The notes under the pieces: model-generated
The model's database searches: none
Seen by the model: only the letters and a program-made list of their open reading frames with translations
Told to the model about the DNA's origin: nothing
Made by a program: the position numbers and the translations under genes
Source: Dysgonamonadaceae bacterium
GTDB taxonomy: Bacteria; Bacteroidota; Bacteroidia; Bacteroidales; Azobacteroidaceae
Assembly (NCBI GenBank): GCA_031263685.1
Contig: JAISFI010000208.1
Coordinates: 1 to 38,371, forward strand
Length of the DNA: 38,371 nucleotides
Direction of reading: 5' to 3'
Shown: in pieces, positions 6,996 through 25,802 of the stretch
Numbering within the stretch: the stretch's first letter is position 1
Layout: the number at the start of each line of letters is the position of its first letter

Positions 6996-7002
6996 CATAT
7001 TT

Positions 7003-7115: not shown

Positions 7116-7116
7116 A

Positions 7117-8256
7117 TCACTCCAACCCGTACAACTGCCGCACAGTCTGCTCAAACAGTTTAAACGTTTCGTGCTGCTTCGGGAAATCGCCCTGCACGAT
7201 GTACATTACAATCAGTCCGCTTTTCGGGTATATCTTCGTGTCGGAGCCTAAAGCGCCGCCGTGTCCCATGTAGCTGTCGCCGACGGCCCAGCCCAGACCG
7301 TTGCGGCTGCCGGGGTATATACCGGTCTGCGCTTCTCCCATTTGGCGTACGCTTTCTTCGCTGATGATTCGGCGGTTGCGGCAGATGCCTTTGGCGGCTA
7401 TCATCCGGTAGAATTTCAGTAAGTCGCGGGGCGTGCAGAAAATGCCGCCGCCGGCTTCCGCGTGCCGCCTGTTCCTGTCGTTCAGCGGATACTGCAGGTA
7501 GCCGATGGGGATTTCTTCCATCTTTCCCGCTTTTACCGTACAGGGAAGGATCAGTTTCGACAACTGTTTCCCGTCTGGAAAGAAGGTGGCGCTGCTCATT
7601 TCCAGCGGGTCGAAAATTCGCTTTTGCAGAAATGTTTCGTAGCTCATTCCCGAAACCCGCTCTACGATGGCGGCGGCGATGTTTATTCCCTGATTGGAGT
7701 ATTCATAACGTTCGCCCGGCTCAAAGAGCAGGGGTGTTATCGCGCTAACGTATATGCTGTTGACGAGCGATAGCTGGTCTATTTTGCCCGTCTGCTCCTG
7801 CACGCCGCCCAGAAACGTCATTCCGGAGGTGTGCGAAAGCAGATGGCGCAGGGTGACGGGCTTTACGGCCTTTTCCAGCACCTGAAAGCTTTCTTTTTTC
7901 AAGCTTCGAACCATCAGCCCCTTGAGTTCCGGGAGATAGCTTGTTACGGGTTCGTCCAGACTGAGCTTCCCCTCTTCGACGAGCATCATTACCGCTACGC
8001 CGGCAAAGGGCTTGCTTTGCGAAGCGATCCAGAAGAGTGCGTCGGGCGACATTTCTTTGCTGCCCGTTCCGCCGGCCATGCCCAGGTATTGCTCGTCGAG
8101 GATTTTATCGCCGTCGGCAATGATGTAAATCAGGCCGGGCAGTTCTCCCCGGTCGATCGGTTCCTGCATCGTGGAATGGAGCGTGCTGCCGGGGTCGGCA
8201 AGCGTTGCCTGAACGAAAAAGACGGTCAGGCAGAGTGAAATTACTGTTTTATTCAT
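7117..8256 (-). CDS. Serine hydrolase / class C beta-lactamase-like family (beta-lactamase fold esterase)
   Basis: SxxK in 'WIASQSKPFAGVAVMMLVEEGKLSLDEPVTSYLPEL', YxN in 'YEYSNQGINIAAAIVERVSG', HxG-like 'YMGHGGALGSDT', signal peptide from ATG 8256 (MNKTVISLCLTVFFVQATLA). Confidence 0.85.
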   Translation of the reverse strand: MNKTVISLCLTVFFVQATLADPGSTLHSTMQEPIDRGELPGLIYIIADGDKILDEQYLGMAGGTGSKEMSPDALFWIASQSKPFAGVAVMMLVEEGKLSLDEPVTSYLPELKGLMVRSLKKESFQVLEKAVKPVTLRHLLSHTSGMTFLGGVQEQTGKIDQLSLVNSIYVSAITPLLFEPGERYEYSNQGINIAAAIVERVSGMSYETFLQKRIFDPLEMSSATFFPDGKQLSKLILPCTVKAGKMEEIPIGYLQYPLNDRNRRHAEAGGGIFCTPRDLLKFYRMIAAKGICRNRRIISEESVRQMGEAQTGIYPGSRNGLGWAVGDSYMGHGGALGSDTKIYPKSGLIVMYIVQGDFPKQHETFKLFEQTVRQLYGLE

Positions 8257-8307
8257 GCGAAAATGGATGTTGATATATGGTTGTAAATTAATTGTTTTGG
8301 TTCGGTT

Positions 8308-8343
8308 TTCGCTCGGCGTAGCGTGAACGCCACGCCGAGCGAA
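8308..8343. repeat. Near-perfect intergenic hairpin with CGCTCGGCG...CGCCGAGCG ends
   Basis: TTCGCTCGGCGTAGCG-TGAA-CGCCACGCCGAGCGAA. The 9-mer ends recur at the edges of the 23-nt array at 16531-16761. Confidence 0.75.
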
Positions 8344-8351
8344 GGGATTCA

Positions 8352-11300
8352 TCATTTCACAACCAACTTTTGCGTCGTCGTCACGCCGTTGCGGGATGTT
8401 ATTTGCAGTAAATAACTTCCTTTGGCGTACCGGCTTACATCTACGCTGTGCTGCGTCGCACCCGGACGGGCGTCATAAACAGTTTGCCCAAGCAGATTCA
8501 CAATACGCACCTCTTGCAGGAGTGTTTCCGACTGGACATGCAGCGTTCCGGAAACCGGATTCGGCCAGGCGGAAACCGCAGCGCCGACCGTCAACTCGTC
8601 GATGCCGGTCGACTGGCCGTAATTGCGGATGTATTTCTCCATGATGGCCATCGTCGATTTCTCGGTAGCATAGTTGTCTTTCGGCTGAACGGTGAGGTGG
8701 TAGTTGTCGTAAAATGCGCCGCCGCACCAGTAGGTGGCCGTCATCTGATGTTGCTTCAGGTAGGAGAAGACGCTGTCGATGAGCACCATGTAACGCGGAT
8801 CGCCGCCCTCTGCGCCGTTGTAGGGCACGCCGAACTCGCCGATCATGCCGGTTTTGCCGTTGGCGGCGCACCAGTTGATGAACGGGTCGAGGCGGCCTTT
8901 GGTACGTGCGTCGAAGTTGTTGCCGACTTCGGAGTCGTAACTGCCTTGATACGTTCCCGAAGCATTCCCGTCGAAATAGCAGTGCGCCTGATAAATCAGT
9001 TTGTTTGCCGGGTCGGTCAGGTTTTTAAGCTCGTCGCTCACGCTTGCCCAGCCCGCTGCCGAAGCGTAGCTCCTTCCCTCGATTGAAATATACGCCTGCA
9101 TGTCCTTTTCGCGGATGGCGTTGATAGCCATTTGATAATTATTGAATAAAATATCCATGCTGAGGCTTTTCGGCTCGTTCATCAGGTCGTAGCCCCAGAT
9201 GTTGGAGCAGTCGGCAAAAGCGACCGCGAGCTTTGCCCACACGTCGGCGTAATGGGCGGCGGTGACAACAGGCTCGTCGTCACTGTACCAGCCGCCCCAC
9301 GCGTTTCCGAGCCAGTTGCGGTGGCCGGCCACGCCTATTTCGTAGAGCTTGCCGTCAACAGCCCGTTCGCAGTAGTCGTGCATGTCGAGCATCACCCACA
9401 TGCCGAGGCGTTCGGCTTCCTTGACAACCTTGTGCATCTCGGTGATGTCGTTCGTGGTGAGCGCGCCGTTAAATTCGCTCTGTACACGCGGCCAGCGGAA
9501 AGGCAGGCGAATCAGCTTGATGCCCTTGGCGTTGAAGTAGTACAGGTCTTCGTTTTTCGGATAGCGGTAATCGGTTCCATAACGGCCCGGATTGCTTCCT
9601 CCCGAACCCGAAGCAAGGTTGATGCCCAGCATCACGGTTTCGCGCGGCGGCAGACTTCCCGTACGGCTGTCCTGAATCGACTCGCCGGGCGTCGGCGTGT
9701 CGGAGCAGAGGGTGGCTACTGCCGTTCCGCTAACCGGCTCGCCTTTGTAGGCAAAAATATTGTCGATATACACGTTCATCGAAGAATAACCGACCAGGCG
9801 GGGGCGGAGCACATAAACGTTCGACAGGTCGAGCATGTCCTCGAAGTAGCAGAGCGGAATGGAGATGGACGTCCATTCGCCCGGCTTCATCTCGACGGAG
9901 GCAATCAGCTTGTCACTGTCGAGCTTGCCCTGGGGGTTGTGGTTGTCGTGCATGAAGAAGGTCATCGAGCAGGGCTTGTCGTTCACCAGTCCGCTGGCTA
10001 AGTAAGCGCTGATGTGCAGGTATTTCATATCGCTCAAATCCATAGTCGTGCTCGTTCTGTGTATTTTGAAAGGATAATCGTTCCAGCCGGTGAGCTTGAT
10101 GGTGCTGTTTCCCGAACCGGGAACGATTTCTACAAACTCGCGCTTCTGGTTGGCGTTTTGCCCGTAGTTCATTTTGGCAACGGCATAATCGTCTTCAAGC
10201 GTATAATTGCCAGAAATATCCCAGATGCCTAATTCATCCTGATAACCGGCTTCTTCAAGCTGTTCGCAGAAGATGGAAATCACATCGTCGACGTTGGCCG
10301 TAACGGTCGGAACGGTCGTTGGGGCGGGGAGTTCCGGTGGTATATCGGGATCCGGAGGCTGCACGCCCGGGCCGTCGCCCGTTTTGTAGGCGTAAATGTT
10401 ATCGACATACAGGAGGGTTCCCGGCGCGCCTTTCCCGCCGCGCCTCAGGCGGATGATGTTGATGTTGGATACGTCGAAAGCCGGATTCGTGGCCACGAAG
10501 CGCGTGAGCGCTATGTCGAAGCTGATCCAGCGTCCGTGCAGGTTCGCTTCGGTGATATTGAGCCAGATATTGGCGGATACGTGATTGCCTCCGCTCCAGT
10601 CGAAAATCAGGCCGAAGTCAAACTCGCCGATTCCCTTATCGCTGCCGGGCGAATAGATGTCGATATGCAGGCTGTCCATTCCCGTCAGGTTGCACGTGCC
10701 GAGCGAGATTTGCGCATGATTGTTGCTGTAAAGCGTATCGAGTTTCAGCAGCGATTCGGCAGGCGCACTTTCAAAGGGATAAATGATTTCCCTTGTGGGA
10801 GCCTTTACGGACAGCCAGTCGGCGTAATCCAGGATGAACTGCCCGCAGGGGTAAACATCGCTGAGGATGCCTCTCACGTTAGTTGGGTCGTGCCTTGGCA
10901 GAGGTGCGGGGATGTGTGGACGTTCGGATGTCAAATCTATGGCGTCACCGACTGTCATGGTTACGCGGTCGACGATGGTAACGGTGAGGCTGCCCGACTT
11001 CGTGTTGTCATAATCGGAAGTCGCGGTAACAGTCAGCGTGGCAGCCGTTTCATCGGCAGCCACCGTGAGCAGGCCTGTGCTGGAAAGCGTTGTTGCACTG
11101 CTTTCAGCGCCGCTGAGCGACCAGCTTACTTCCCTCGGCGGATTGTTTGCAACGGAAAATACAGCGCCGTACTGCGCCATCGCGCCGCGCTCTATCTGCG
11201 TCGCGCCGCTGACGCCGACGGATTTCACTACCGGCGAATGGTCGATGTGCTGCGAGGTATAAATGTACACGTTATCGACATACAGCTTTTGTCCGGGCGA

Positions 11301-12677
11301 ACCCTGCCCGCCGCGCCGCAGCCGCAGTATGAGGGCATATTCGCCCTGTACCAGGAATTTCGATATGGGAACTTCAAAGCTGATCCACTGTCCGTGCCGG
11401 TTTTCCTGGGTAATCCGGTACCAGACGTCGGCCTGTATCAACGCAGCGTTGTTCCAGTGGTTGTCTCCCACATAAAGAGCAAACTCAAATTCGCCGATTC
11501 CGTCGTTACCGCCGGGCGAATAGACGTCGATGTGGATGCTGTCCCGGTCGGTCATGGCCACTGCGCCCAGACTAATTTGCGCTACATTGTTGTTGACGAG
11601 CGAGTCGAGAAACAGGACATGATCTTCGGGGGCGTCGTCAAAGGGGGTGATGACTTCCTTGCGCGGCAGGGTGGTACCTGTCGGCAGCCAGTCGCTGTAG
11701 TCGGTGACAAACTGCCCGTTGTTGTTGTAATGATCGCTGAAAATGTTTTTTACATCTTCCTGAGCATGCACGGGCGTTGGCGCAGGCGTTGCCGGCGGGG
11801 TGATGAGGATGATTTTGCGGACGGCCGATTTCGTGTTGTCGTAAACGGACGTAGCCGTAAGTGTCAGGACAGCGGCCGTTTCGTCGGCAGCCACCGTGAG
11901 CAGACCGGCGGATGAAAGCGTGGTGGCGGGTTTGACTGCTCCGGCAAGCGACCATGTTACCGCCTGCGAGGGATAGTGTGCGCCGGTAACGGTTGCGCCG
12001 TACTGCGCCGTCGCGCCACGTTTTACCGCTCCTGTGCCGCCGATTGTTATCGCGTCGATCGTCGGCGTATGGTTGATGTATTCCGACTGATAGGCGTAAA
12101 TATTATCTACAAAGAGCAGGTTGCCCGGCGAACCCGCTCCGCCGCGCCGGATGGCAATTTGCGTAATCTGGTCGATCTGCATGTTGGCGGTGGCAGCAAA
12201 GCGCGTGATGGGCAGTTCGATTGCTATCCACTGTCCATGCTGTCCCAGATTGGTAATATTGAGCCAGATGCCGGCCTGCGCCCTTGTTCCGTTTGCCGAC
12301 AGGAGGGCGAAGTCAAATTCGCCGATTCCCGCGTTATCGGCGGGCGAGAAAATGTCGATATGCAGCGTGTCCATGGTGCGCCAGTCCTGCGCATCGAACG
12401 AAAACCACGCTTCCTTGTTTCCCGTACCGTTGGTGAGGTTTGAAATCTTTATCACTTTGTCGGTTGGGGCAGTCGCAAAGGGCTTTTCGACAGAGATTTG
12501 CGTAACAGAACCCGTGGCGTTGTACTGGATGTTTCCCACAGGGGTGTAAGGGTCGCTGAACAGTGCGGCAACCCGGTTCGCTGCGTGCGGCGGCGTAGGC
12601 GCGGGTGCGGATGGCTGGGCAAGTGCGCTTTGCATTGCCGCAAGCATTAAGAATAGAAAGAAAATCTGCTTTTTCAT
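8352..12677 (-). CDS. Large secreted multi-modular GH5 family glycoside hydrolase with T9SS C-terminal sorting domain
   Basis: Signal peptide. Four ~180 aa beta-sandwich-like modules, each ending in a '(V/I)DN(I/V)(Y/F)(A/I)Y' motif (about 12630-12090, 11785-11254, 10915-10382, 10330-9745). Big_2-type Ig-like linkers ('LSSAGLLTVAADETAAVLTLTATSVYDNTKS'). GH5 catalytic domain (about 9640-8640) with 'LPFRWPRVQ', 'MLDMHDYC', 'DLMNEPKS' and 'GMIGEFGVPYN'. T9SS type A tail '...WPNPVSGTLHVQSETLLQEVRIVNLLGQTVYDA...YAKGSYLLQITSRNGVTTTQKLVVK'. Confidence 0.9.
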   Translation of the reverse strand: MKKQIFFLFLMLAAMQSALAQPSAPAPTPPHAANRVAALFSDPYTPVGNIQYNATGSVTQISVEKPFATAPTDKVIKISNLTNGTGNKEAWFSFDAQDWRTMDTLHIDIFSPADNAGIGEFDFALLSANGTRAQAGIWLNITNLGQHGQWIAIELPITRFAATANMQIDQITQIAIRRGGAGSPGNLLFVDNIYAYQSEYINHTPTIDAITIGGTGAVKRGATAQYGATVTGAHYPSQAVTWSLAGAVKPATTLSSAGLLTVAADETAAVLTLTATSVYDNTKSAVRKIILITPPATPAPTPVHAQEDVKNIFSDHYNNNGQFVTDYSDWLPTGTTLPRKEVITPFDDAPEDHVLFLDSLVNNNVAQISLGAVAMTDRDSIHIDVYSPGGNDGIGEFEFALYVGDNHWNNAALIQADVWYRITQENRHGQWISFEVPISKFLVQGEYALILRLRRGGQGSPGQKLYVDNVYIYTSQHIDHSPVVKSVGVSGATQIERGAMAQYGAVFSVANNPPREVSWSLSGAESSATTLSSTGLLTVAADETAATLTVTATSDYDNTKSGSLTVTIVDRVTMTVGDAIDLTSERPHIPAPLPRHDPTNVRGILSDVYPCGQFILDYADWLSVKAPTREIIYPFESAPAESLLKLDTLYSNNHAQISLGTCNLTGMDSLHIDIYSPGSDKGIGEFDFGLIFDWSGGNHVSANIWLNITEANLHGRWISFDIALTRFVATNPAFDVSNINIIRLRRGGKGAPGTLLYVDNIYAYKTGDGPGVQPPDPDIPPELPAPTTVPTVTANVDDVISIFCEQLEEAGYQDELGIWDISGNYTLEDDYAVAKMNYGQNANQKREFVEIVPGSGNSTIKLTGWNDYPFKIHRTSTTMDLSDMKYLHISAYLASGLVNDKPCSMTFFMHDNHNPQGKLDSDKLIASVEMKPGEWTSISIPLCYFEDMLDLSNVYVLRPRLVGYSSMNVYIDNIFAYKGEPVSGTAVATLCSDTPTPGESIQDSRTGSLPPRETVMLGINLASGSGGSNPGRYGTDYRYPKNEDLYYFNAKGIKLIRLPFRWPRVQSEFNGALTTNDITEMHKVVKEAERLGMWVMLDMHDYCERAVDGKLYEIGVAGHRNWLGNAWGGWYSDDEPVVTAAHYADVWAKLAVAFADCSNIWGYDLMNEPKSLSMDILFNNYQMAINAIREKDMQAYISIEGRSYASAAGWASVSDELKNLTDPANKLIYQAHCYFDGNASGTYQGSYDSEVGNNFDARTKGRLDPFINWCAANGKTGMIGEFGVPYNGAEGGDPRYMVLIDSVFSYLKQHQMTATYWCGGAFYDNYHLTVQPKDNYATEKSTMAIMEKYIRNYGQSTGIDELTVGAAVSAWPNPVSGTLHVQSETLLQEVRIVNLLGQTVYDARPGATQHSVDVSRYAKGSYLLQITSRNGVTTTQKLVVK

Positions 12678-12753: not shown

Positions 12754-15700
12754 TCATTTCACAAGCAGTTTTGCACGTTTAACCGTTTCGTTATTGCTGC
12801 GAAAGTCGAGGAGGTAGAGGCCGGGGTTGATGTTCAATGCCAGCCGGGAATGGCGGTCTGCCAGCGGATAGTCGGCGAGGCGGTTTCCCAGACTTGAATA
12901 GAGGGATAGCGACGCGTTTTCTGCCGGATAATCCGTATCAACGTGCAGGGTCTCGCCAGCGGCGATCGGATTGGGATAGAGGTGCATCGGACGGTTGTCC
13001 CTTACCGCTGCCATGCCCGTTTCGCTGCTTTCCCGGACGTCAAAGAGGTAGCTGCCCGACTGGAGTTCGAGGACAAACCGGTCGTCTTCTTCGGTAAACG
13101 AGGCGACGCCGTCGACGTTTTCGGCGGTGATGCCGTTTTGATAAACCCCCGTCCCGTCCCTGTATTTGGGAATGTAGAGCGTAGCCGTCGTATTGGCGGG
13201 AACGGTAAAGGAGTAGGTGAAATCGCCGTCCGGCGTTTCTTCCCACCGGCTTTTGATGGCGCCGCATGGGGAACCGAATACCGCATCTACTTTGGTAATG
13301 CGTTCATTAAACGGGAGGTTTCTGGTATCGGTCAGCGGACGAAGGATGAAATGCTTGAAGCCCGGATAGTTTTCATCGACCTCAATGCCGGCCATGTAGC
13401 GGTACATCCATTCCGAAACGGCGCCATAGGAGTAATGGTTGAAGGAATTCATCTTCGCATCGCCAAATCCGCCGGCGAGGGTGTAGGAGTTCCAGCGTTC
13501 CCAGATGGTAGTCGCACCCTGATCCACGCTGTACAGCCACGAGGGATCGTTGCGCTGCAGAAGGAGCGTGTAGGCCATGTCCGTAGCGCCGTTCTCGCTC
13601 AGTGTCTGGTTCAGGATGCCCGTGCCTACAAATCCGGTGCTCAGGCGGTTGCCGTTGGCTTTTATTTTATCGACGAGGCGGGCGATGATTTCCTGCTTTA
13701 TCGCAGGCGTGGCCGGGAGGTCGTTTTTCAAGGCCAGCAGGAATGCCGTCTGCGAAGTGACCGTTAACATTCCCGTGCCCGGATCGGTGTATCTTGTTTG
13801 AAATTCGGCCTTGATGTTGTCGTAGAGCGTTTGATACTTTGCCGCCTGCTGCGCGTAGGCATCTCCTTCGGAAACGCTCAGGGCTTTGGAGATTTTAGTC
13901 ATCAACTGCGCGACGTTGGCATAGTAGCAAACGCAGATGTAGCGGGTGTCGGTATTCTCGTAGGCCAGCCAGTCGCCGTATTGCGTATTGCCGCCGTTGT
14001 AGAGGTAATCGGCCGATTTCTGCGTCGCCAGCCAGTCCATGAAGCGCTCCATGGAGGCATAATGTTCGTTCAGGATTTCGCGGTCGCCATACATTAAATA
14101 GATGTTCCAGGGGACGATGATTCCGGCATCGGCCCAAGCTGTGGCGCCGTTGCCGTATTTATTGTTGTCGGGCACGACCGAGGGGTAGCTGCCGTTGGAG
14201 AGCTGACTGTCGCGCGCGTCTTTCGCCCACTTGTGGAAAAACGCGGCGACGTTGGCGTTGTAGGCGGCGGCGCGCGAAAAGATCTGCGTATCGCCCATCC
14301 ATCCCAGGCGCTCGTCGCGCTGCGGACAGTCGGTAGGAATGCTCAGGAAATTGCCCCGCTGTCCCCAGACGATATTGCTGTACAGTTTGTTGACCAGTTC
14401 GTTGCTGGTGGAGAGGGAGGCATATTCTTCGTTTACCGTGCCGACGACTTCGCCCTTTATCATTTCTATCTCAATATCGTCCGTAGCCGTCAGTTCGCAG
14501 TAGCGGAAGCCGAAAAAGGTCATCGACGGATGGTAGGTTTCGCCCTGCGCATCACCTTTCAGGATATAGTTCAGGGTAGCCTTCGCCGTGCGGAGGTTTT
14601 GCAGGTAGAGCGTTCCCTTCGCGCCGTCGTTCCGGCGCGAACCGGCGCCCGAATCGTTCAGCATTTCGGCAAAGCGTCCCTTCAGCTTTACACCCTGCGC
14701 GCCGCGTACACGGAATTTAATCCAGCCCACCATGTTTTGTCCGAAATCGTAAATGGCCGTCTCGCCTTTCCGGAGCGTGATGTTTTCATCGCCTTCAATT
14801 GTCCGAACCGTGTTGATTTCGCCATACGTGGCGCCGTTCGATTTGATTCCATTGTAAATGGTGATGCTTTCCGGCGACCGCTCCAGCGCGGGACGCACCT
14901 GCACCGGCGGCCCGATGAGGGCGAGGATGCTGCCCTTGAAATAGTCGTTGACCGTGGCCGCTGTCCATCCGGAGTCGTCGAAATCCGCACTTGTCCAGTT
15001 CGTTTCCTTCCGGGCGTCGTAGTTTTCGCCGTTATATATATCGGCCATGCGGAGGGCCGACCGGGTGGAGGTTTTCCAGTCTGCCGTCGTGGTGACGACC
15101 GTTTCGACGCTTCCATCCGTGTATTCTATCCGTATCTTGGCGATAAAGCCCGGCGACTGATTGCCGTATATGTTGCTGGAGATGGCGCCGGTGAACCATC
15201 CGGACGAGACTTGCGCGCCGACTGCGTTTTCGCCCTGTGTGAGCAAGTCCGTTACATCGGAGGTAGCATAGAAGACGGTTTTGCGGTAATCCGTCCATCC
15301 GGGCTTGAGTTCGTCGTACACCCGCGTTCCGTCGGGCTGGGGATTGCCCACTCGCTGGCCGTTGATAAAGAGGTCGTATATGCCCAGGGCGGACGAGTAG
15401 ATGCGGGCGGAACGGATGGCCTTCGCCGCCGTAAACGTTGTCCGAAACATCGGAATACCGTTGGAACTGTCGTCGAAGATGCAGGTTTCGCCGCTGGACG
15501 AGAAACTGTAGAGTTTGGAGTTTCCATCGACCGTTACCGTTTCGCCTTCACCAAAAAGATTGCTTCCGTTTTCAAAGTCTTCGGAGAGGAGGATTTCCGG
15601 CTCATTGTCCGTGTAATTGGTCAGGACGATGTTGTCCCAATAGGCTTTTTCGTTGACGCCGCCTGCATTATACGCCCTGAAGCCCAGTCCGGACGGTATC

Positions 15701-16476
15701 AGGCGGTTGTAGGTATCGGTATAGGTATCGATCAGAACATCATCGATATAGGTTTTGACGGTGTTTCCGGTGACGTCTATTTTGAGGTGGCGTTCATGGT
15801 CGATCAGGTCGGCCTTTGAATAGAACTGCCCGAACTTTGCATTGGATACCGAGAAGGATCCGTTGTAAAAGTGCCGCCGGAGCAGGGGTTCGCTCGCGTC
15901 GTCGTGCGTATTGATCGACCACATGTAGAAGAGCGACGTGCCGGCGGCGGAGAAGATGATCCCCGCGTTGTCGTTCAGGAGCGTAACATCGGCCTCGACC
16001 GTAAAGTGCGACCCGGCGACTGTCGGTTGCGGGGAGAGTTTCAGCCACTGGGCGCCGCTCCAGCCGGAGTTCAGCAGTCCGGTTTCAAAGAAAGCTTCTT
16101 CGCCGGACGGGATTTCCGTGTCGTTTTTATCCCAGGCCGAGACTTTCCAGTAGTAGCGCGTCGAGGGCGAAAGACCGGCGCCGGTGTATTTTACGCCCAC
16201 TGAAGCATCGGACGGGATTTTTCCCGAAGTCCAGACTTCGGTTGTTTTGTCGTTGGCCAGCAGCGTGATTTGATACGCCGTTTGGCGCTGTCCGGTTTCG
16301 GCATCGTCCATTTCCCAACTGAATTGCGGGTTTGCGGCATCTGTCCCGATGGGGTTTTTCATGTATTCCACACGAAGATTTCTGAGCGATGCGGCAGCCT
16401 GCAAAACAGGCGCTGCGGAAAGCATTATTCCACACAGGCACAGTGTTCGGAGCGATTTTGAATGTTGTAAAGTCAT
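12754..16476 (-). CDS. GH78 family alpha-L-rhamnosidase with LamG/DUF1080-like insert and T9SS C-terminal sorting domain
   Basis: 'LRNLRVEYMKNPIGTDAANPQFSWEM' N-domain, 'RSARIYSSALGIYDLFINGQRVG' and 'SSGWFTGAIS' Bac_rhamnosid motifs, catalytic '(I)PTDCPQRDERLGWMGDTQIFSRAAAYN', and C-terminal 'LYPNPIAAGETLHVDTDYPAENASLSLYSSLGNRLADY...GLYLLDFRSNNETVKRAKLLVK'. Confidence 0.92.
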   Translation of the reverse strand: MTLQHSKSLRTLCLCGIMLSAAPVLQAAASLRNLRVEYMKNPIGTDAANPQFSWEMDDAETGQRQTAYQITLLANDKTTEVWTSGKIPSDASVGVKYTGAGLSPSTRYYWKVSAWDKNDTEIPSGEEAFFETGLLNSGWSGAQWLKLSPQPTVAGSHFTVEADVTLLNDNAGIIFSAAGTSLFYMWSINTHDDASEPLLRRHFYNGSFSVSNAKFGQFYSKADLIDHERHLKIDVTGNTVKTYIDDVLIDTYTDTYNRLIPSGLGFRAYNAGGVNEKAYWDNIVLTNYTDNEPEILLSEDFENGSNLFGEGETVTVDGNSKLYSFSSSGETCIFDDSSNGIPMFRTTFTAAKAIRSARIYSSALGIYDLFINGQRVGNPQPDGTRVYDELKPGWTDYRKTVFYATSDVTDLLTQGENAVGAQVSSGWFTGAISSNIYGNQSPGFIAKIRIEYTDGSVETVVTTTADWKTSTRSALRMADIYNGENYDARKETNWTSADFDDSGWTAATVNDYFKGSILALIGPPVQVRPALERSPESITIYNGIKSNGATYGEINTVRTIEGDENITLRKGETAIYDFGQNMVGWIKFRVRGAQGVKLKGRFAEMLNDSGAGSRRNDGAKGTLYLQNLRTAKATLNYILKGDAQGETYHPSMTFFGFRYCELTATDDIEIEMIKGEVVGTVNEEYASLSTSNELVNKLYSNIVWGQRGNFLSIPTDCPQRDERLGWMGDTQIFSRAAAYNANVAAFFHKWAKDARDSQLSNGSYPSVVPDNNKYGNGATAWADAGIIVPWNIYLMYGDREILNEHYASMERFMDWLATQKSADYLYNGGNTQYGDWLAYENTDTRYICVCYYANVAQLMTKISKALSVSEGDAYAQQAAKYQTLYDNIKAEFQTRYTDPGTGMLTVTSQTAFLLALKNDLPATPAIKQEIIARLVDKIKANGNRLSTGFVGTGILNQTLSENGATDMAYTLLLQRNDPSWLYSVDQGATTIWERWNSYTLAGGFGDAKMNSFNHYSYGAVSEWMYRYMAGIEVDENYPGFKHFILRPLTDTRNLPFNERITKVDAVFGSPCGAIKSRWEETPDGDFTYSFTVPANTTATLYIPKYRDGTGVYQNGITAENVDGVASFTEEDDRFVLELQSGSYLFDVRESSETGMAAVRDNRPMHLYPNPIAAGETLHVDTDYPAENASLSLYSSLGNRLADYPLADRHSRLALNINPGLYLLDFRSNNETVKRAKLLVK

Positions 16477-16530
16477 AATAATTGATTTTGTTTCTGTTTC
16501 TGATAAAGTACAGTATAATGTTTGATTTTA

Positions 16531-16761: not shown

Positions 16762-16777
16762 CCGCCTTCCGGCGCCA

Positions 16778-19700
16778 TTATCCGTCCCGGACGCCTTTCT
16801 TCGTCCGGGAAGTTTCGCGGGGAACAACAGGTGCTGCCGGCGGCGGCGTTTTTGTACTGTTCGACAGCATGAAATCTTTCGGCAATATCCCGAAATGTTC
16901 GTAAAAGCATTTCGAAAAATAGGAAGGCGTTTCAAATCCTACCAGATAGCAGACTTCGTTGATCTTGTATTTTGTGGTCGCCAGCATCTGAGCGCCCTGA
17001 TTGAGCCGAATCAGCTTGATATAGTCGTTGGGCGTAATGCCCGTGATGTTTTTGATTTTCTTGTGGAGATTGGAGCGGCTGATGAAAAAGCGTTCGGAAA
17101 GGCTGTCGATGGTGAACTTGTCGTCCGACATGTTTTCGATGATGCAGGCGTTCAGCTTTTCTATAAATTCGCGGTTGTCGGGCTTTTCCATTTTCTGCTT
17201 GAAATAGTTCAGGGGCGACTGGATGAAATTGTTCCGGAGGTTGTTCCGGTTTTCGATGATGCTGTTGACCTGCGCCTTGAGCTGCTCGATGGAAAAAGGC
17301 TTTTCGAGATATACATCCGCGCCCTTTTTCAGTCCCTCGATTTTTGTCTGCGTATCCGTCTTGGCCGAAAGCAGGATGAGGGGGATGTGCGAATAGGCGA
17401 GGTTGGTCTTGATGGCGTTGCAGAGTTCCAGGCCGTCCATTTCCGGCATCAGGATGTCGGAGATAATGACGTCCAGGCTTTCTTTTTCGACGATTTCCAT
17501 GGCTTTCCGTCCGTTTTCGGCCTCCAGGATGATGTGGTTTTCGTTCAGGTTGGATACCAGGAAGGAGCGCAAATCCTTGTTGTCTTCCACGACCAGGATT
17601 TTCAGGCTCGAATCGCCCGCTTTTTCCTCGTCTGGCGGCTGCACCTGTGGAGCGTCGCCTTCCTCGCAGCTTGCGATCGGGAGTTTTAGCGTGAACACCG
17701 ATCCTTTGCCCGGTTCGGATTCGACGGCGATGCTTCCGTTGTGCTTTGCCGCCAGCGACTGCGAAAGCGACAGTCCCAGACCGGAACCGGTTTTCGGCAC
17801 ATTATCCTTGTCCGGTATCCGGAAAAAGGGTTCGAATATTTTGTTCCAGTACTGTTTATCCAGGCCTGCGCCGTCGTCCTTGACCGAGAGGGAGAGGTAC
17901 TTATCGTCGGCGCCGAGCCTGATTTCAATCCTTTCGCTCGCGTATTTGATGGCGTTGGAAACGAGGTTGCTGACAATCTTGTAGATGGCTTCCGAATCGA
18001 CAATGCTTTCTATGCGGTCGCTGCTCATGGAGAGAGACATGTCGATGTTGCTGAGCCGCGCGTTCTGGTGATACTGACTGTACACGTCCTGCACGATTTT
18101 CACGATGTTATGCTTCCTGAAGTTGAACAGGAACATGTTTTCCTCCACCTTCCGGAAGTCGAGCAGTTGGTTAATCAAATCCAGCAGGCGATTCACATTG
18201 ATGTCGATGATTTCCAGGTTGTTTCTCGTCTGCCGGCTGCCGTCGCCGGACAGGAGGATGTTCTCCAGCGGAGCGATGATCAGCGAGAGCGGCGTCCTGA
18301 TTTCGTGCGCGATGTTCGTAAAGAAATTGATTTTGGATTCGTAGGTTTCCTTTTCCTTTTCGGCTTTGTACTTGTAGAGCTTTTCCTGGTTTTTGGCGGC
18401 CAGTCGCCTGTTGTAGGCATATATCAAATAGGCTGCGACGCCGAGTGCGAGCGCGATGTAGAGGCATATCATATAGTTCTCGAACCAGAAAGGCGGCTTT
18501 ATCCGGATGGCGATGCTTGTGCCCGACTCGTTCCATACCCCGTCGTTGTTCGCTCCCTTCACCCGGAAAACGTAGTTTCCGGCGGGGATGTTCATGTAAT
18601 GGGCTTTCGTGTCGTTGCCCACGTCGTTCCAGTCGGCGTCGAAGCCCTCCAGCATGTATGCGTACCGGTTGTGGTCGGGCGACAGGTAGCTGAGCGCCAC
18701 AAAATCGAAGTTGAAAGAAGACTGGTTGTATTTCAGCGTGATTTCCTTCGTGTTGCCGATAGCCGCCTTCAGGGGCGACGACGCAGCGCCGGCAATCATC
18801 TCCCGGTTGGCAATCCGAAAGCCGGTAACGGTGACTGGAGGAACCTGCCGGTTGGTAGAAATCTCCTTGGGATTGAAGGATATAAACCCGTTCGTGCCGC
18901 CGAAGTACAGGTGATTGGCGGAGGTTTTCAGGGCGCTTTTGGGGTTGTAGCGGATTTTCCGCACGTCGCCGATGTATCCGAAGGTTTTGACGGTTTTCTG
19001 TTCCGTGTGGATACGCAGCAGGCCGCTGCTGGTTGTTACCCAGAGATAGCCCTCGTTGTCGTCGAGCATGGAATATATAATGTTGGACGACAGTCCCGAT
19101 TCTTCGCTCAGGAAGCGTTCAAAGCGGTTCTTTTCGGGATTGAACAGCAGCAGACCCTCGCCCTCCGTTCCCGCCCAGATGCGGAACCTGGAATCCTGGA
19201 AGATGCAGTTGATGTTGTTTGTCGGCAGCGATTCGGCGTCTTCGGCTTGATGACCGAAAGCGCTCCACTGGCCGTTTATGTCCAGGCGCAGCACGCCGTT
19301 GGCATGGGTGGCAAACCATACATTGCCCTTGTAGTCTTCTTCAATGTCCTTGATTGGCATACCGGCCAGGTGCGCTATCCGGCTCATTTTTCCGGTGAGC
19401 GGGTCGAAACTCCCGGCGCCTTCTTCCGAGCCTAACAGCAAGTATCCCTTCGAATGTTTGAAAAGGGTGGTGATGAAGTTGAAAGAATGAATGTCCGAAA
19501 CGCCGGCAACCTTTCCCGTCCGGGTGTTCAGGACGCTTAGCCCTCGTCCGTAGAGGCTGATGTACAGCCGGTCGTTGTCCGGCAGGAGATCCTGTATGTC
19601 GTGATAGCCCACGTCGTAGTGCGCCGCTTCAAAGCGTTTCGTGGCGGGATTGAAGAGCGACAGGCCGCCGTTGTAGGTACCCACCCAGATTTTCCCGCTC

Positions 19701-20767
19701 TTGTCTTCCGCGAAGCTGCTGATGATATTCTTTTTCGACGAATGGCCGGGCGTGCTGTAGTAATAAAAGAACTTGTTGATGGCCGGTGAAAAATAATTGA
19801 CGCCTCCGAAGTACGTTCCAATCCAGAAGGCGCCTTCCGTGTCGCGGATGATGGAGAAGATGGATTTGTCCGTCAGGTTGTCGAAATCGTTGTTCAGAAA
19901 CTCGAAGCTGTCCGACGTGCGGTTGAAGACAACAAGCCCCTTGTCGGAACCCATGATGAGTTCGCTGTCGGAATATTCCGTGATGGATTTGATGTTGAAA
20001 GCCTGCTGACTCATATAGCAGTTCAGTTTCCCGGTGCGGTAATTGTACCGGTACAGGCCGCTCGAGGCAGTTCCTATCCAGAGATTGTTTTCGGCGTCGC
20101 AATAAAGGCTGTACACCGTCTGGTCGGTGATGCCCAGCGTTTCCCGGCCATTCATCCGGGTAAAAGTCTCCTTTTTGGAATCGAAAAAGATCAGCCCCTC
20201 ACCGGCAGACGCGAGCCAGAAGTTTCCCGTATAGTCCTGCACAATGTTCCATATATAATTGGAGGGAATATCGCCGGGGTTGCCGCTGTTATAGTAGTGT
20301 TTCCTTACCGACAGATCGGTGTTGAGAACGTACAGCCCCTGCCCGTGACAGGCTATCCGGATACTTCCGTCCGGATCTTCCATGATGGCGTTGATGCTGG
20401 CATCGTCCTCCCGCGTTCTGCCGAGGTCGATGTGGCTGAACCGCTCCACATGCGTGTCGAAAAGGTAAAGCCCGTTTTTTGTGCCGACGAAAAACCGCTC
20501 CCTGGAATCTTCTTTCATGCAGTGAATGAAGTTGTTTCCGATGGAAGACGCGTCGTCTTGCCGTTTTTTGAAAACCTTGAACGACTTGCCGTCAAAGCGG
20601 TTGAGTCCGTCGCTTGTCCCGAACCAGATAAACCCCCTGCGATCCTGCATGACCGACCAGACACTGTTGTGCGACAGGCCGTCTTCGACCTGGTAACTTC
20701 TGAAGTAAAACGCTTCCACCGGAAGAATAAATACCTGCATCAGGATGATGAAAAAATACTGCTTCAT
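16778..20767 (-). CDS. Hybrid two-component system sensor/regulator (HTCS): periplasmic reg_prop repeats, Y_Y_Y, HisKA, HATPase, receiver and AraC HTH
   Basis: Repeated 'FIWFGTSDGLNRFDG', 'GNVWFATHANGVLRL', 'YLWVTTSSGLLRI' propeller motifs; 'FFTNIAHEIRTPLSLIIAPLENIL' H-box; 'GSGLGLSLSQSLAAKHNGSI' ATPase; 'ILVVEDNKDLRSFL...DVIISDILMPEMDGLEL' receiver; C-terminal AraC HTH. Start preferred at ATG 20767 (MKQYFFIILMQVFILPVEAF). Confidence 0.93.
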   Translation of the reverse strand: MKQYFFIILMQVFILPVEAFYFRSYQVEDGLSHNSVWSVMQDRRGFIWFGTSDGLNRFDGKSFKVFKKRQDDASSIGNNFIHCMKEDSRERFFVGTKNGLYLFDTHVERFSHIDLGRTREDDASINAIMEDPDGSIRIACHGQGLYVLNTDLSVRKHYYNSGNPGDIPSNYIWNIVQDYTGNFWLASAGEGLIFFDSKKETFTRMNGRETLGITDQTVYSLYCDAENNLWIGTASSGLYRYNYRTGKLNCYMSQQAFNIKSITEYSDSELIMGSDKGLVVFNRTSDSFEFLNNDFDNLTDKSIFSIIRDTEGAFWIGTYFGGVNYFSPAINKFFYYYSTPGHSSKKNIISSFAEDKSGKIWVGTYNGGLSLFNPATKRFEAAHYDVGYHDIQDLLPDNDRLYISLYGRGLSVLNTRTGKVAGVSDIHSFNFITTLFKHSKGYLLLGSEEGAGSFDPLTGKMSRIAHLAGMPIKDIEEDYKGNVWFATHANGVLRLDINGQWSAFGHQAEDAESLPTNNINCIFQDSRFRIWAGTEGEGLLLFNPEKNRFERFLSEESGLSSNIIYSMLDDNEGYLWVTTSSGLLRIHTEQKTVKTFGYIGDVRKIRYNPKSALKTSANHLYFGGTNGFISFNPKEISTNRQVPPVTVTGFRIANREMIAGAASSPLKAAIGNTKEITLKYNQSSFNFDFVALSYLSPDHNRYAYMLEGFDADWNDVGNDTKAHYMNIPAGNYVFRVKGANNDGVWNESGTSIAIRIKPPFWFENYMICLYIALALGVAAYLIYAYNRRLAAKNQEKLYKYKAEKEKETYESKINFFTNIAHEIRTPLSLIIAPLENILLSGDGSRQTRNNLEIIDINVNRLLDLINQLLDFRKVEENMFLFNFRKHNIVKIVQDVYSQYHQNARLSNIDMSLSMSSDRIESIVDSEAIYKIVSNLVSNAIKYASERIEIRLGADDKYLSLSVKDDGAGLDKQYWNKIFEPFFRIPDKDNVPKTGSGLGLSLSQSLAAKHNGSIAVESEPGKGSVFTLKLPIASCEEGDAPQVQPPDEEKAGDSSLKILVVEDNKDLRSFLVSNLNENHIILEAENGRKAMEIVEKESLDVIISDILMPEMDGLELCNAIKTNLAYSHIPLILLSAKTDTQTKIEGLKKGADVYLEKPFSIEQLKAQVNSIIENRNNLRNNFIQSPLNYFKQKMEKPDNREFIEKLNACIIENMSDDKFTIDSLSERFFISRSNLHKKIKNITGITPNDYIKLIRLNQGAQMLATTKYKINEVCYLVGFETPSYFSKCFYEHFGILPKDFMLSNSTKTPPPAAPVVPRETSRTKKGVRDG

Positions 20768-20839
20768 GGCATTCCATGTTTTAAAGTCCAAAATTATTAC
20801 ATAATGATTTTTTGCACTGCAAATATATTTCCAATATAT

Positions 20840-20880
20840 GCAAGAATATTGTAATGTTGGAAAAAAAAGAATATTCTTGC
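20840..20880. promoter_or_regulatory. Perfect 11-nt inverted repeat in the HTCS / GH88-GH92 divergent intergenic region (candidate regulator site)
   Basis: GCAAGAATATT (20840-20850) - 19 nt - AATATTCTTGC (20870-20880). Confidence 0.5.
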
Positions 20881-20968
20881 CTATTTGTGAAATATATTTG
20901 CATCCCTTTTGCATATATCGGCCTACATTTGCATGGTATATTTTTTCACGGACATTTTCACGGACATT

Positions 20969-23900
20969 ATGAGAAAGACGATAGCTTTTTTACTTACCCT
21001 TCTTTTATGTACGGCAACCGGCATCTGCCGGGCGCAAAGCGATGCAGGCACCGCAGGCATCACAGTCGATGCAGATGCACTGCTGGAATATTGCCGTCTG
21101 CAAACCCGTCAAACACTGCTGAAAACGGCGAACGACAGTTGCGCGCGTCCCCGCTGCATCAATCTGAAAGATACGGACTGGTACATGGTCAATATTTACG
21201 ACTGGACAAGCGGTTTCTGGCCGGGGATTTTGTGGTATAACTACGAAGCTGCGCCCGATGAGGGGATTCGGGAGATGGCCGTCCGCTATACGGAATGTCT
21301 CAGCCCGCTGACCAATCTGCAGCACGACTGCGACCACGACATCGGCTTTCAGGTGATGAGCAGTTTCGGTCATGCCTACCGGCAGACGAAGAACGAAGCA
21401 TACAGGACGAGGATTCTGGAAGGTGCGGAAAAGCTGTCGAGGCTCTACAATCCGACAGTAGGCACGATCCTGTCGTGGCCGGGCATGGTGCAGCGCATGG
21501 GATGGCCGCACAATACGATCCTGGACAATATGATGAACCTTGAAATACTGTTTTTCGCCTCCAAGAACGGCGGGAAACGCGAATGGTACGATATGGCGGT
21601 CAGCCACGCAAGAGTGACCATGGAAAATCAGTTCCGTCCCGACGGGACGAGCTACCATGTGGCCGTATATGATACGGTGACCGGAAAATTCATCAAGGGC
21701 GTGACCAATCAGGGATATGGCGACGAAACATTCTGGGCGCGCGGACAGGCATGGTCTGTCTATGGCTATACGATGGTCTACCGCGAAACCGGCGACGTCG
21801 AGTTTCTGCGCTTTGCCGAAAAGCTGGCCGATACTTACCTGCGCCGCCTGCCGGAAGACGGTGTGCCGTTCTGGGATTTTGACGACCCGGCTATTCCCAA
21901 CGCTCCCAAAGACGCTTCGGCTGCCGCTATCACGGCGTCGGCGCTGCTGGAACTGTCGCAACTGGAAGACGACCGGCAGAAGGCACGGAAATATGAAGCG
22001 GCTGCCGTCCGGATGCTCAACAGCCTGTCATCGGCCAGCTACCGGTGCAGCGACGGCAAGTCGGCTTTCCTCCTCCACAGCACGGGCAACTATCCCGGCG
22101 GATACGAAATAGATGCTTCCCTCATTTATGCGGATTACTATTATATTGAAGCCCTGGTGAGGTATAAGAAAATCAGGGACGGCAGAACGTCTCTGTCCGA
22201 CAAGGTGGATCTGTTTATGGGCGTGCAGGGCGCGAGCAATTGCGTCATCGGCCCTCAGTGGCCGCACGGTTCGGTCAATCCCGCTCCGCATACGCCCCGG
22301 GGACATCACGACGGATACGATCCCGGACAGCCCATTCGCGGATTTGCCCAGCTCCACGTGTCCGGCGCCGGCTGGGGACGCTACGGACAGTTGTTGCTGT
22401 CGCCGCAGACGGGATTCAACAGCAATGAGGACGGGCACGACTCGCCCAAGTCGGAAGAAGTGGCGACTCCTTATTATTATGCCGTCCATCTTGATCGCTA
22501 CGGGATTCGTACGGAGATAACGCCCACGCATCACTGCGCCCTGTACCGGATAACGTTCCCGCAGACCAGCCGTCAATCCAATGACGCAAATATACTGTTA
22601 GACCTCGCACACAATATTCCGCAGCATATTGCGCCGGAAATCAAAGGAAGATTCATCGGCGGAAACATCTCTTACGACAAGCGCGAAAACGCCCTGAGCG
22701 GCTGGGGGGAATATGCCGGCGGATTCGGCAGCGACCGGCCTTATAAAGTCTGGTTTTATATGCAGCCGGACGTTTCTCTCGATAAAGTGCGGATAAGCGA
22801 CCGGAAAAAGGGCGTTCTGTACGCCCGCCTGCAACTGCCCGAAAACGTCGGGACGGTGCGACTGGATGTGGGCGTGTCGTTTCAAAGCGTTGAAAATGCG
22901 CGGCGTTTCCTGGCTATGGAAGTGGCTCAAAAATCTTTCGATGAGGTGAAAAGTCAGGCGAAAGAGGCTTGGGAAAACGTGCTGTCTTCCATCGAAGTCA
23001 GGGGCGGAACGGACGAGGCACAGCGCCTGTTTTATACTACCCTCTATCACAGTTTCCTGATGCCGCGCGACCGTACCGGCGACAAGCCCGGCGAGATGTT
23101 TAACGATGGGAACGACAGCCGTCCTCACCTCGACGACCATTACTGCGTGTGGGATACCTGGCGGACGAAGTATCCGCTGATGACGCTGATTCAGGAGAGT
23201 TTCACGTCGAAGACTATTCAATCGTTCCTGAGCCGCTTTGCCGCCGACAGTATCTGCAATCCCACCTACACCTCGTCTTTGGAATGGGACTGGAAGCAGG
23301 GCGGCGACGATGTTGACAATATCATCGCCGACGCTTTTGCCAAGAAGGTGCCGGGTTTCGACCGTCAGGCGGCATACGAACTGCTTAAATATCATGCTTT
23401 CAATGCCCGCAATCATTCTTATTTACAATACGGATGGCTGCCGGAGACGGGGGAGCGGATGAGTTGCAGTTATACGATGGAGTATGCGTACAATGATTTC
23501 TGCGCCTCGCAGGTAGCCCGGTATATGCAGGATGCGCAAACGGCGGCGTTCCTGGCCGAACGTTCCGGCAAGTGGGAAAAGCTTTTCAATGCTCAGGCGG
23601 AAAGTCACGGGTTCAAAGGGTTTGTCCTGCCTCGAAGTGTGGATAATGAATGGGTGTCCATCGACCCTGCGAAGAAGTACGGCTCCTGGGAGTCTTATTT
23701 CTATGAAGGCAACTCGTGGGTGTACACGCTTTTCACGCCTCACCAATTTGACCGCCTGATTGACCTGTGCGGAGGGAAGAAGGCGATGACAGACCGCCTC
23801 GTCTATGGATTCGACAATGGCCTGATTGACATGGAAAACGAGCCGGGATTTCTGACGCCTTTCATCTTCATGCATTGCGGTCGTCCGGACTTGGCGGCGA

Positions 23901-24253
23901 AGTATGTGCGACGGATACGTGAAAATCATTTCTCGCTGTCTGCCGGATACCCCGACAACGAAGACAGCGGTGCGATGGGCGCCTGGTATGTGTTTACGTC
24001 CATCGGACTGTTCCCCAATGCGGGACAGGATTTTTATTATCTGCTGCCGCCGGCTTTTCCCGAAATAACGCTTACCCGCGAAAACGGCAAGCGCATCCGG
24101 ATAACGACGGAGAAATCATCGCCCGACGCGCAATACGTCGAATCGATCAGTCTCAACGGCCGGATACTGGACACGCCCCGGATACGGCACGAGGATATGG
24201 CCGATGGCGCAAACATTGTTTTCAAATTGACAACAGTAGACAAAAACAGTTGA
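20969..24253 (+). CDS. Bifunctional GH88 (unsaturated glucuronyl hydrolase) - GH92 (alpha-mannosidase) fusion, predicted periplasmic
   Basis: Signal peptide 'MRKTIAFLLTLLLCTATGICRAQ'. GH88 half (to about 22180) with 'HDCDHDIGFQVMSSFG', 'TILDNMMNLEILFFAS', 'GYGDETFWARGQAWSVYGYTMVYRET'. GH92 half (from about 22185) with 'VDLFMGVQGASNCVIGPQWPHGSVNP', 'YCVWDTWRTKYPLMTLIQ', 'YTMEYAYNDFCASQVARY', 'YFYEGNSWVYTLFTPH', 'NEPGFLTPFIF', 'NEDSGAMGAWYVFTSIGLFPNAG'. One uninterrupted frame. Confidence 0.88.
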   Translation: MRKTIAFLLTLLLCTATGICRAQSDAGTAGITVDADALLEYCRLQTRQTLLKTANDSCARPRCINLKDTDWYMVNIYDWTSGFWPGILWYNYEAAPDEGIREMAVRYTECLSPLTNLQHDCDHDIGFQVMSSFGHAYRQTKNEAYRTRILEGAEKLSRLYNPTVGTILSWPGMVQRMGWPHNTILDNMMNLEILFFASKNGGKREWYDMAVSHARVTMENQFRPDGTSYHVAVYDTVTGKFIKGVTNQGYGDETFWARGQAWSVYGYTMVYRETGDVEFLRFAEKLADTYLRRLPEDGVPFWDFDDPAIPNAPKDASAAAITASALLELSQLEDDRQKARKYEAAAVRMLNSLSSASYRCSDGKSAFLLHSTGNYPGGYEIDASLIYADYYYIEALVRYKKIRDGRTSLSDKVDLFMGVQGASNCVIGPQWPHGSVNPAPHTPRGHHDGYDPGQPIRGFAQLHVSGAGWGRYGQLLLSPQTGFNSNEDGHDSPKSEEVATPYYYAVHLDRYGIRTEITPTHHCALYRITFPQTSRQSNDANILLDLAHNIPQHIAPEIKGRFIGGNISYDKRENALSGWGEYAGGFGSDRPYKVWFYMQPDVSLDKVRISDRKKGVLYARLQLPENVGTVRLDVGVSFQSVENARRFLAMEVAQKSFDEVKSQAKEAWENVLSSIEVRGGTDEAQRLFYTTLYHSFLMPRDRTGDKPGEMFNDGNDSRPHLDDHYCVWDTWRTKYPLMTLIQESFTSKTIQSFLSRFAADSICNPTYTSSLEWDWKQGGDDVDNIIADAFAKKVPGFDRQAAYELLKYHAFNARNHSYLQYGWLPETGERMSCSYTMEYAYNDFCASQVARYMQDAQTAAFLAERSGKWEKLFNAQAESHGFKGFVLPRSVDNEWVSIDPAKKYGSWESYFYEGNSWVYTLFTPHQFDRLIDLCGGKKAMTDRLVYGFDNGLIDMENEPGFLTPFIFMHCGRPDLAAKYVRRIRENHFSLSAGYPDNEDSGAMGAWYVFTSIGLFPNAGQDFYYLLPPAFPEITLTRENGKRIRITTEKSSPDAQYVESISLNGRILDTPRIRHEDMADGANIVFKLTTVDKNS

Positions 24254-24303: not shown

Positions 24304-25200
24304 ATGAAAAGATTTTTTCAATTTTTAGGTTTAGTGGGATTGTTATTCGCGTTTCAGTTTGCAAATGCTCAGAATCCCACTGTTAAAGCGCCGACGACAC
24401 CGTATCCGGCAGCAGATGTGTTGTCTTTCATTGAAGGCACGTATCCGGAATGGGCGACGTTGTCTAACTCTAACTGGGGGGAAACGGCTACCTGGGATTA
24501 TACTTCGGCAGGCACAGGCGACGATGTAAATTCTTGTCTCGTTATCAATGGTCTGAGCGGAAGCGGAGACCCGAACAAGAGATGGTTAGCCATCCGGTTT
24601 AACGGGAACGGCCCGATAAAGAATTATCAGTATGTGCATGTAGATGTTTATTGCAACGAGCCTACGTCGTTCAGGATCGGTTTTAACAGTTGGGCGCCTG
24701 ACCCCGGTGCCGAAGAGTATTTTCCGACCATCCAGCCGACGGATATGACGCCCGGCAAATGGTATTCCATCGAATATCCTTTGGGCGAGTTTATGGACAG
24801 GCCTACATGGGGAGCTGGACGCGACGCCCATCTGCTGCGTTTCGGAAATGTGCCTTCCGATGAGCCGGACATCGCTTATTCGGACGAGATTTATGTGGCC
24901 AATTTCTTTGTCTTCAACGGTCAGCCGCTACATCTGGATGGAACAGTTTCTTCTTCCCTGAAAGAGGTAACGGTCGATGATTTCACGATTTATCCGACGC
25001 TTGTTTCGGATGCTTTTAACTGGAAATCGTCGAAGGAAATCCGGGAGATAAGTGTCTATAATGTTACAGGACAGTTGCAGAAGCGTGTTGAAAACGTGAA
25101 GGATGCTGTTGATGTTTCCGGGTTGAGTGCCGGGACGTATGTGGTGTCTGTGCGGTTTGCTGATGGGACGAGTGGGGGGAGGAGGATTGTTAAGAATTAA
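24304..25200 (+). CDS. Secreted stand-alone carbohydrate-binding-like module with T9SS C-terminal sorting domain
   Basis: Signal peptide; 'VKAPTTPYPAADVLSFIEGTYPEW...YQYVHVDVYCNEPTSFRIGFNSW...GKWYSIEYPLGEFMDRP...DEIYVANFFVFNG' parallels the GH5-associated modules; tail 'DDFTIYPTLVSDAFNWKSSKEIREISVYNVTGQLQKRVENVKDAVDVSGLSAGTYVVSVRFADGTSGGRRIVKN'. Confidence 0.75.
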   Translation: MKRFFQFLGLVGLLFAFQFANAQNPTVKAPTTPYPAADVLSFIEGTYPEWATLSNSNWGETATWDYTSAGTGDDVNSCLVINGLSGSGDPNKRWLAIRFNGNGPIKNYQYVHVDVYCNEPTSFRIGFNSWAPDPGAEEYFPTIQPTDMTPGKWYSIEYPLGEFMDRPTWGAGRDAHLLRFGNVPSDEPDIAYSDEIYVANFFVFNGQPLHLDGTVSSSLKEVTVDDFTIYPTLVSDAFNWKSSKEIREISVYNVTGQLQKRVENVKDAVDVSGLSAGTYVVSVRFADGTSGGRRIVKN

Positions 25201-25466: not shown

Positions 25467-25802
25467 ATGGAAACTATAGAATTACAGCCTAAAGAAGACG
25501 TTCCCGAGGAGCGAACGCAGGAAGTTAAAAAGTACGCATTTGTCTCTAAACGTGCATTAGAAGCAGACCATATCGGTTATTGCTACCACGATTATCCCGA
25601 AACAAATATCGACAGTGGGTGGCGTTTCCTGTACGGAGATGAAGACGAAGATTATCTGGATAATCCAACCCACAGCGAAGCCGTCTACCCGGAAGATATG
25701 CTTTCTATCAATCCCGCGTTGGAAGTCATCCTGTCTTCCCCTGTCAACATGGAGTTTGAATGGGATCCCGATCAGGAGATGTATGTGGAAATAAACGCAT
25801 AG
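25467..25802 (+). CDS. DUF2185 domain protein
   Basis: 'AFVSKRALEADHIGYCYHDYPETNIDSGWRFLYGDEDEDYLDNPTHSEAVYPEDMLSINPALEVILSSPVNMEFEWDPD' matches the DUF2185 pattern (VSK, DSGWRF-GDED-EY, LDSP). Confidence 0.8.
   Translation: METIELQPKEDVPEERTQEVKKYAFVSKRALEADHIGYCYHDYPETNIDSGWRFLYGDEDEDYLDNPTHSEAVYPEDMLSINPALEVILSSPVNMEFEWDPDQEMYVEINA

Follow-up and report, generated by a model that had tools for sequence, protein, structure and literature searches.

A single-chain fusion of GH88 and GH92 domains in a Bacteroidales genome, with a possible role in removing uronate-mannose side chains

A single open reading frame (ORF) joining a glycoside hydrolase family 88 (GH88) domain to a GH92 domain was identified in a gut-type Bacteroidales bacterium (Dysgonamonadaceae bacterium, assembly GCA_031263685.1, contig JAISFI010000208.1). 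The DNA was analysed as one stretch of 38,371 nucleotides, referred to here as the window. The ORF, listed with other features in Table 1, translates free of stop codons into 1094 residues at exactly the coordinates given by an earlier, sequence-only reading, and a further in-frame TTG lies 60 bp upstream. On sequence comparison the fusion was confirmed, with both domains appearing complete and their catalytic residues intact. It is considered rather likely, though well short of certain, that two genes of an operon have merged, and that the product is an exported two-enzyme chain that would strip Delta-4,5-unsaturated glucuronic acid (DeltaGlcA) and then alpha-mannose (alpha-Man) from xanthan- or acetan-type fragments.

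Family profiles detected both halves, Pfam for each and NCBIfam also for GH92. The GH88 profile PF07470 matched residues 70–364 with 45.5 bits (cut-off 26.6 bits), and in a search of PDB sequences residues 60–403 matched the GH88 entry 3wiw (1e-80). The two Asp regions pointed out beforehand, HDIGF and LDNMMNL, were borne out by alignment with the unsaturated glucuronyl hydrolase (UGL) of Bacillus GL1: both catalytic residues of that enzyme, Asp88 and Asp149, were matched by Asp124 and Asp186, the position of Asp88 being anchored by the D88N mutant chain 2ahf. The second half was likewise found to be a full-length GH92 domain, as had been claimed, since PF17678 and PF07971 were accompanied by TIGR01180 (GH92 family; residues 398–1089) and by a PDB match of residues 425–1087 to 6f8z (GH92, BT3130; 7e-64). 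About 12 residues lie between the domains, in keeping with the near-absent linker noted earlier. The G-C content, G-C content at third codon positions (GC3) and codon usage were alike in the two halves.

A full-length AlphaFold2 model was built, using an alignment in which relatives with GH88 alone and with GH92 alone were combined block by block. For the whole chain, the mean predicted local distance difference test score (pLDDT) was 83.7 and the predicted template modelling score (pTM) was 0.71. Analysis with Foldseek matched the GH88 half of the model to 3wiw (template modelling score, TM, of 0.80), and the GH92 half to BT3130 (TM of 0.90 on the target) and to the alpha-1,3-mannosidase 7zgm (TM of 0.88). 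Each half combined its family profile with the corresponding fold: an (alpha/alpha)6 fold for GH88, and an N-terminal beta-sandwich with a catalytic (alpha/alpha)6 domain for GH92. The last GH88 helix in the model extends to residue 405 and GH92 starts at about residue 409, so that both domains are complete and virtually unlinked by further residues.

The nearest relative of both halves came from one genome, a Dysgonomonadaceae metagenome-assembled genome (MAG; Pq454_bin51), at the locus designated L072; L072 and L073 lie on the same contig. There, GH88 and GH92 are separate genes that adjoin in the order of the fusion and share 71% and 69% identity with its respective halves. The surroundings are also comparable, with a hybrid two-component regulator (HTCS) 68% identical to the divergent HTCS of the window, and a related protein with a type IX secretion system (T9SS) tail after GH92. 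From the point where the common part of GH88 ends to that where the common part of GH92 begins, L072 has 140 bp as against 33 bp in the window. Those 140 bp consist of the last GH88 codons with their stop, a spacer of 20 bp and the coding sequence of a lipoprotein signal peptide; in the window, this stop, this spacer and the signal peptide of GH92 are gone, for a net loss of 107 bp with the frame kept. The window picks up at SLSDKVDLFMG, which corresponds to the mature GH92 start in relatives (e.g., SLADKVDMWMG in L081). The two-gene state of L072 was inferred to be ancestral. Adjacent GH88 and GH92 genes of one polysaccharide-utilisation operon would then have merged when the stop codon of the first, the short spacer and the signal peptide of the second were lost. 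Trees of the GH88 half and of the GH92 half were poorly resolved and yielded no date for the fusion.

That the fusion might instead be an artefact of assembly or strain mixing, with two neighbouring genes in the real genome and some 107 bp lost where reads or contigs were joined, was judged unlikely. The genome derives from a single metagenome bin (446 contigs, 6.3% contamination), the closest relative retains two genes and no second fusion of this kind was found in the searched genomes, all of which would suit an artefact. However, the loss preserves the frame, covers exactly the stop, the spacer and the signal peptide, and ends where mature GH92 starts, and a random assembly join is therefore unlikely. 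Moreover, no direct repeat of at least 8 bases was found at the joint, composition is even across it, and similar joining arises independently in other assemblies (GH92-GH5 and GH88-PL8).

The combination was rare. Searches used the whole protein for 48 genomes from the family, the GH92 half for 393 from the order, and queries spanning the joint for 395 from the class and 396 from the phylum, with some overlap among these samples. Among the matches listed for the family, class and phylum genomes, only the window itself crossed the GH88-GH92 joint, although the joint searches would miss fusions of distant GH88 or GH92 types, or those in reversed order. Nor was GH88 seen fused ahead of GH92 among the 80 best loci for this GH92 subfamily in a set of roughly 85,000 species genomes; two of these loci (L103, L146) had no readable GH92 frame. 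No single-chain GH88-GH92 enzyme was found in the literature searched. The statement in the sequence-only reading that these are normally separate enzymes stood, relatives encoding GH88 and GH92 as separate genes, and its proposal to look for other chains of this kind produced no second example among those matches.

Other fusions were frequent around these genes. Four loci had GH5 fused to the C-terminus of GH92 (L074 from Bacteroides salyersiae, L083, L085 and L086), in chains of about 1025–1074 residues. Others joined GH88 to a polysaccharide lyase of family PL8, which combines a lyase with the enzyme that disposes of the unsaturated ends it creates, or GH92 to PL5-like domains; the large fusions of the latter kind (L172, L175) may mark a separate pathway for uronate-mannose polysaccharides. 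Several candidates for a second GH88-GH92 fusion had other domain pairings on inspection: L173 (GH28-GH88), L174 (GH29 with a GH88-like tail), L167 and L168 (GH88-PL8), L172 and L175 (GH92-PL5-like) and L177 (GH92-GH16-like). Given how often such genes are fused, the GH88-GH92 chain is only moderately surprising. By its sequence it is a rare, genuine-looking fusion, and would represent a new domain combination of two known enzymes rather than a new kind of system.

The product would be exported as a single soluble protein containing both enzymes, probably to the periplasm. A lyase encoded elsewhere would leave a terminal DeltaGlcA on mannose; the GH88 half would hydrate and release this residue first, after which the GH92 half, a predicted Ca2+-dependent inverting alpha-mannosidase, would take off the alpha-Man that this uncovers. 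The chain probably acts on a beta-1,4-glucan that bears DeltaGlcA-Man side chains, such as a xanthan- or acetan-type exopolysaccharide after treatment with a lyase. The order of action, substrate, linkage and location of the fused chain are all inferred from the present analysis. Release of DeltaGlcA followed by that of alpha-Man, already suggested by the sequence-only reading, fits the pairing of domains, the loci shared by relatives and the order GH88, GH92, GH3 in which separate enzymes of B. intestinalis degrade xanthan tetramers (PMC10881899). Paenibacillus taichungensis also clusters GH88, GH92 and PL8 xanthan lyases (PMC12827396). The gene set of a xanthan-type locus, i.e., GH88, alpha-mannosidase and endo-beta-1,4-glucanase in one cluster, was found both in the window, where the glucanase is GH5, and in relatives. 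GH88 accompanied this GH92 subfamily in 8 loci (L073, L074, L075, L081, L083, L085, L086 and L124), which span several families, Chitinophagaceae among them. The most constant partner of the subfamily was GH5, occurring as a separate gene directly after GH92 in L075–L078, L080 and L124. Further members of these loci were GH3 (L074, L086), an AXE1-type esterase (L074), PL8 (L083) and SusC/SusD (L072, L124).

Several observations weigh against this interpretation, in addition to the state of the metagenome bin described above. No lyase gene that could make the DeltaGlcA end was found among the genes of the window; the PL8 genes of the same genome lie on other contigs, and one of them is chondroitinase-AC-like. 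The PL8 within locus L083 is also nearer to chondroitinase AC, the PDB entry nearest to the GH88 half is a heparin-specific UGL, and many related GH92 loci are without GH88 nearby. It is possible, if less likely, that the substrate is a different glycan of uronate and mannose, such as glucuronomannan or a plant gum, instead of a beta-glucan with side chains. Other GH92 proteins from the same bacterial family (L172, L175) have PL5-like lyase domains fused to them, with GH88 beside that of L172 and no GH5 seen in this arrangement; the window carries GH78, which xanthan does not need, and sets of GH92 have been proposed for diatom glucuronomannan (PMC9723552). Yet the GH92 of L172 is only 27% identical, close GH92 relatives keep a GH5 endoglucanase either adjacent or fused and have GH3 nearby, and the GH5 of the window's own cluster is nearest to endo-beta-1,4-glucanases. 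It seems very unlikely that the halves serve different substrates and were joined just for co-export or equal dosage. The resemblance of GH88 to a heparin-specific enzyme and the many GH92 loci of the wider set lacking an adjoining GH88 would agree with this, but such GH88 enzymes are repeatedly associated with this GH92 subfamily, in the 8 loci and several families noted above, and the two activities are sequential in the published pathway (PMC10881899).

Acetan contains rhamnose, mannose and glucuronic acid (PMC5050591), and the GH78 in the cluster would suit a rhamnose-bearing relative of xanthan such as this. On a more speculative view, which is very doubtful, the chain would be a side-chain stripper in which substrate is handed directly between active sites, DeltaGlcA and alpha-Man being removed in one binding event, within a GH78/GH5 locus for an acetan-type, rhamnose-bearing polysaccharide. 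To our knowledge, no bacterial degradation system for a polysaccharide of that type has been described.

The linkage cut by the GH92 half was reconsidered. The sequence-only reading had contrasted NEPGF with an NEPSHH motif attributed to alpha-1,2 enzymes, but this was a misreading: NEPSHH stands in BT3130 (likely alpha-1,3) and 7zgm (alpha-1,3), and not in BT3990 (alpha-1,2). The glutamate of NEP is not the catalytic acid, while NEPGFL is common to the close GH92 subfamily and unrelated to the fusion. The suggestion of a different linkage thus loses its original argument, although a preference other than alpha-1,2 may hold through a shortened 580-loop stretch and the NED base motif. BT3990 owes its alpha-1,2 specificity to His584-Glu585 of the 580-loop and to Trp88 (PMC5930347). 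Counterparts of the 580-loop determinants were not found in the fusion, where 17 residues separate the aligned blocks compared with 41 in BT3990 (i.e., about 24 shorter); this argues against alpha-1,2 specificity and not against membership of GH92. The NED form of the base motif is reported in alpha-1,3 enzymes (PMC12858847). Together, the motif and the shortened stretch lean towards alpha-1,3, which is probably the linkage that the GH92 half cuts.

Among known systems, the xanthan-oligosaccharide locus of B. intestinalis (GH88, GH92, GH3, GH5, PL-CE), compared here by its published description (PMC10881899), is similar in having GH88 and GH92 in one locus and acting sequentially on lyase-treated tetramers. 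Its GH5 and GH3 also occur in relatives of the window locus. By the same description, however, its enzymes are separate proteins, and the window has an additional GH78 and is without GH3, SusCD and a lyase. The L072/L073 contig differs in that GH88 and GH92 are separate genes which both encode a signal peptide, in the SusC/SusD adjoining its HTCS and in having no GH78 or GH5 beside them. The GH92-GH5 fusions share the GH92 subfamily and the gene set and have GH88 as a gene of its own nearby in the locus, but carry GH5 at the C-terminus where the window carries GH88 at the N-terminus. The Pedobacter-type heparin UGL (3wiw) and the Bacillus GL1 UGL (1vd5) have the same fold and both catalytic Asp, but are single-domain. 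BT3130 (6f8z/6f90) and 7zgm share the fold, the catalytic acid (EGN motif) and the position of the base with the GH92 of the window, which is 23–27% identical to them by structure alignment and differs in having NEPGF for NEPSHH, a shorter stretch before NEP and NED for NDD. The CE15-GH8 protein of Bacteroides eggerthii (PMC8417218) is also a pair of linked catalytic domains from a polysaccharide-utilisation locus, albeit of different families.

Enzymes joined in one chain are tied to a common task more closely than enzymes whose genes are neighbours, and here the fusion supports a link between a little-studied GH92 subfamily, with its NEPGFL and NED signatures, and DeltaGlcA-Man substrates. 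For xanthan-like polymers treated with a lyase, the fused chain would be a two-step enzyme ready for use. The recurrent fusions (GH88-GH92, GH92-GH5, GH88-PL8, GH92-PL5-like) provide a testable signal for substrate prediction; the present one opens no new class of system and is best seen as a rare, readily explained variant of a pathway already described.

Table 1. Coordinates of the fusion ORF, its neighbours in the window and fusions at other loci
Feature	Position	Strand	Evidence or remark
GH88-GH92 fusion ORF, 1094 aa	20969..24253	+	Frame translation, Pfam, NCBIfam, PDB sequence search
Signal peptide, residues 1-23 (MRKTIAFLLTLLLCTATGICRAQ)	20969..21037	+	Cleavage site judged by eye
GH88 domain, about residues 34-404	21068..22180	+	Pfam, PDB match, alignment, structure model
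GH88 Asp124 (HDIGF), equivalent to UGL Asp88	21338..21340	+	Alignment
GH88 Asp186 (LDNMMNL), equivalent to UGL Asp149	21524..21526	+	Alignment
Fusion joint, residues 402-412 (IRDGRTSLSDK)	22172..22204	+	Comparison with L072
GH92 N-terminal domain (PF17678), residues 413-614	22205..22810	+	Pfam
GH92 catalytic domain (PF07971), residues 643-1088	22895..24232	+	Pfam
GH92 predicted catalytic acid Glu913 (YFYEGNSW)	23705..23707	+	Aligned with BT3990 Glu533 / BT3130 Glu535
NEP of NEPGFLTPFIF, residues 957-959	23837..23845	+	Alignment; subfamily signature, not catalytic acid
GH92 predicted catalytic base Asp999 (NED motif)	23963..23965	+	Alignment
HTCS, divergent	16778..20914	-	Counterpart in L072; also adjoins genes in L081, L124
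GH78 alpha-L-rhamnosidase, T9SS sorting tail	12754..16476	-	Pfam, NCBIfam; nearest PDB rhamnosidase 3w5m
1441-aa protein, C-terminal GH5, T9SS sorting tail	8352..12677	-	GH5 nearest to endo-beta-1,4-glucanases
Beta-lactamase-fold hydrolase, possible esterase	7117..8355	-	Pfam, NCBIfam
298-aa secreted protein, T9SS sorting tail	24304..25200	+	Its relatives come after GH92 in other loci
Abi_2-family abortive-infection-like protein	6072-6995	+	At edge of GC-rich stretch
Imm33-family immunity-like protein	25467-25802	+	No obvious toxin partner among examined genes
GH92-GH5 fusion, mannosidase + endoglucanase	L074:7785-11009		Bacteroides salyersiae
GH92-GH5 fusions	L083:6915-9995; L085:7932-11009; L086:7935-11024		Rumen/gut MAGs
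GH88-PL8 fusions, ~1075 aa	L167:850-4071; L168:1962-5192		GH88 in L168 by homology match only
GH92-PL5-like-beta-helix, 1402 aa	L172:3631-7836		GH88 gene directly adjoining
GH43-GH92-PL5-like-beta-helix-esterase, 1964 aa	L175:4945-10836		

Two of the related loci encode large secreted proteins beside GH88 (L074:3587-5758, 723 aa; L075:3031-5265, 744 aa), which are only 25% alike and perhaps unrelated. Neither had a Pfam match, and the L075 protein also had no match among PDB sequences; it is possible that these are new lyases or glycan-binding proteins.

The carbohydrate cluster of the window (6000–24250) had a G-C content of 0.51–0.56, compared with 0.34–0.38 in the left flank and 0.42–0.46 in the right. 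Since G-C content is raised relative to the flanks, the cluster may have been acquired as a horizontal island.

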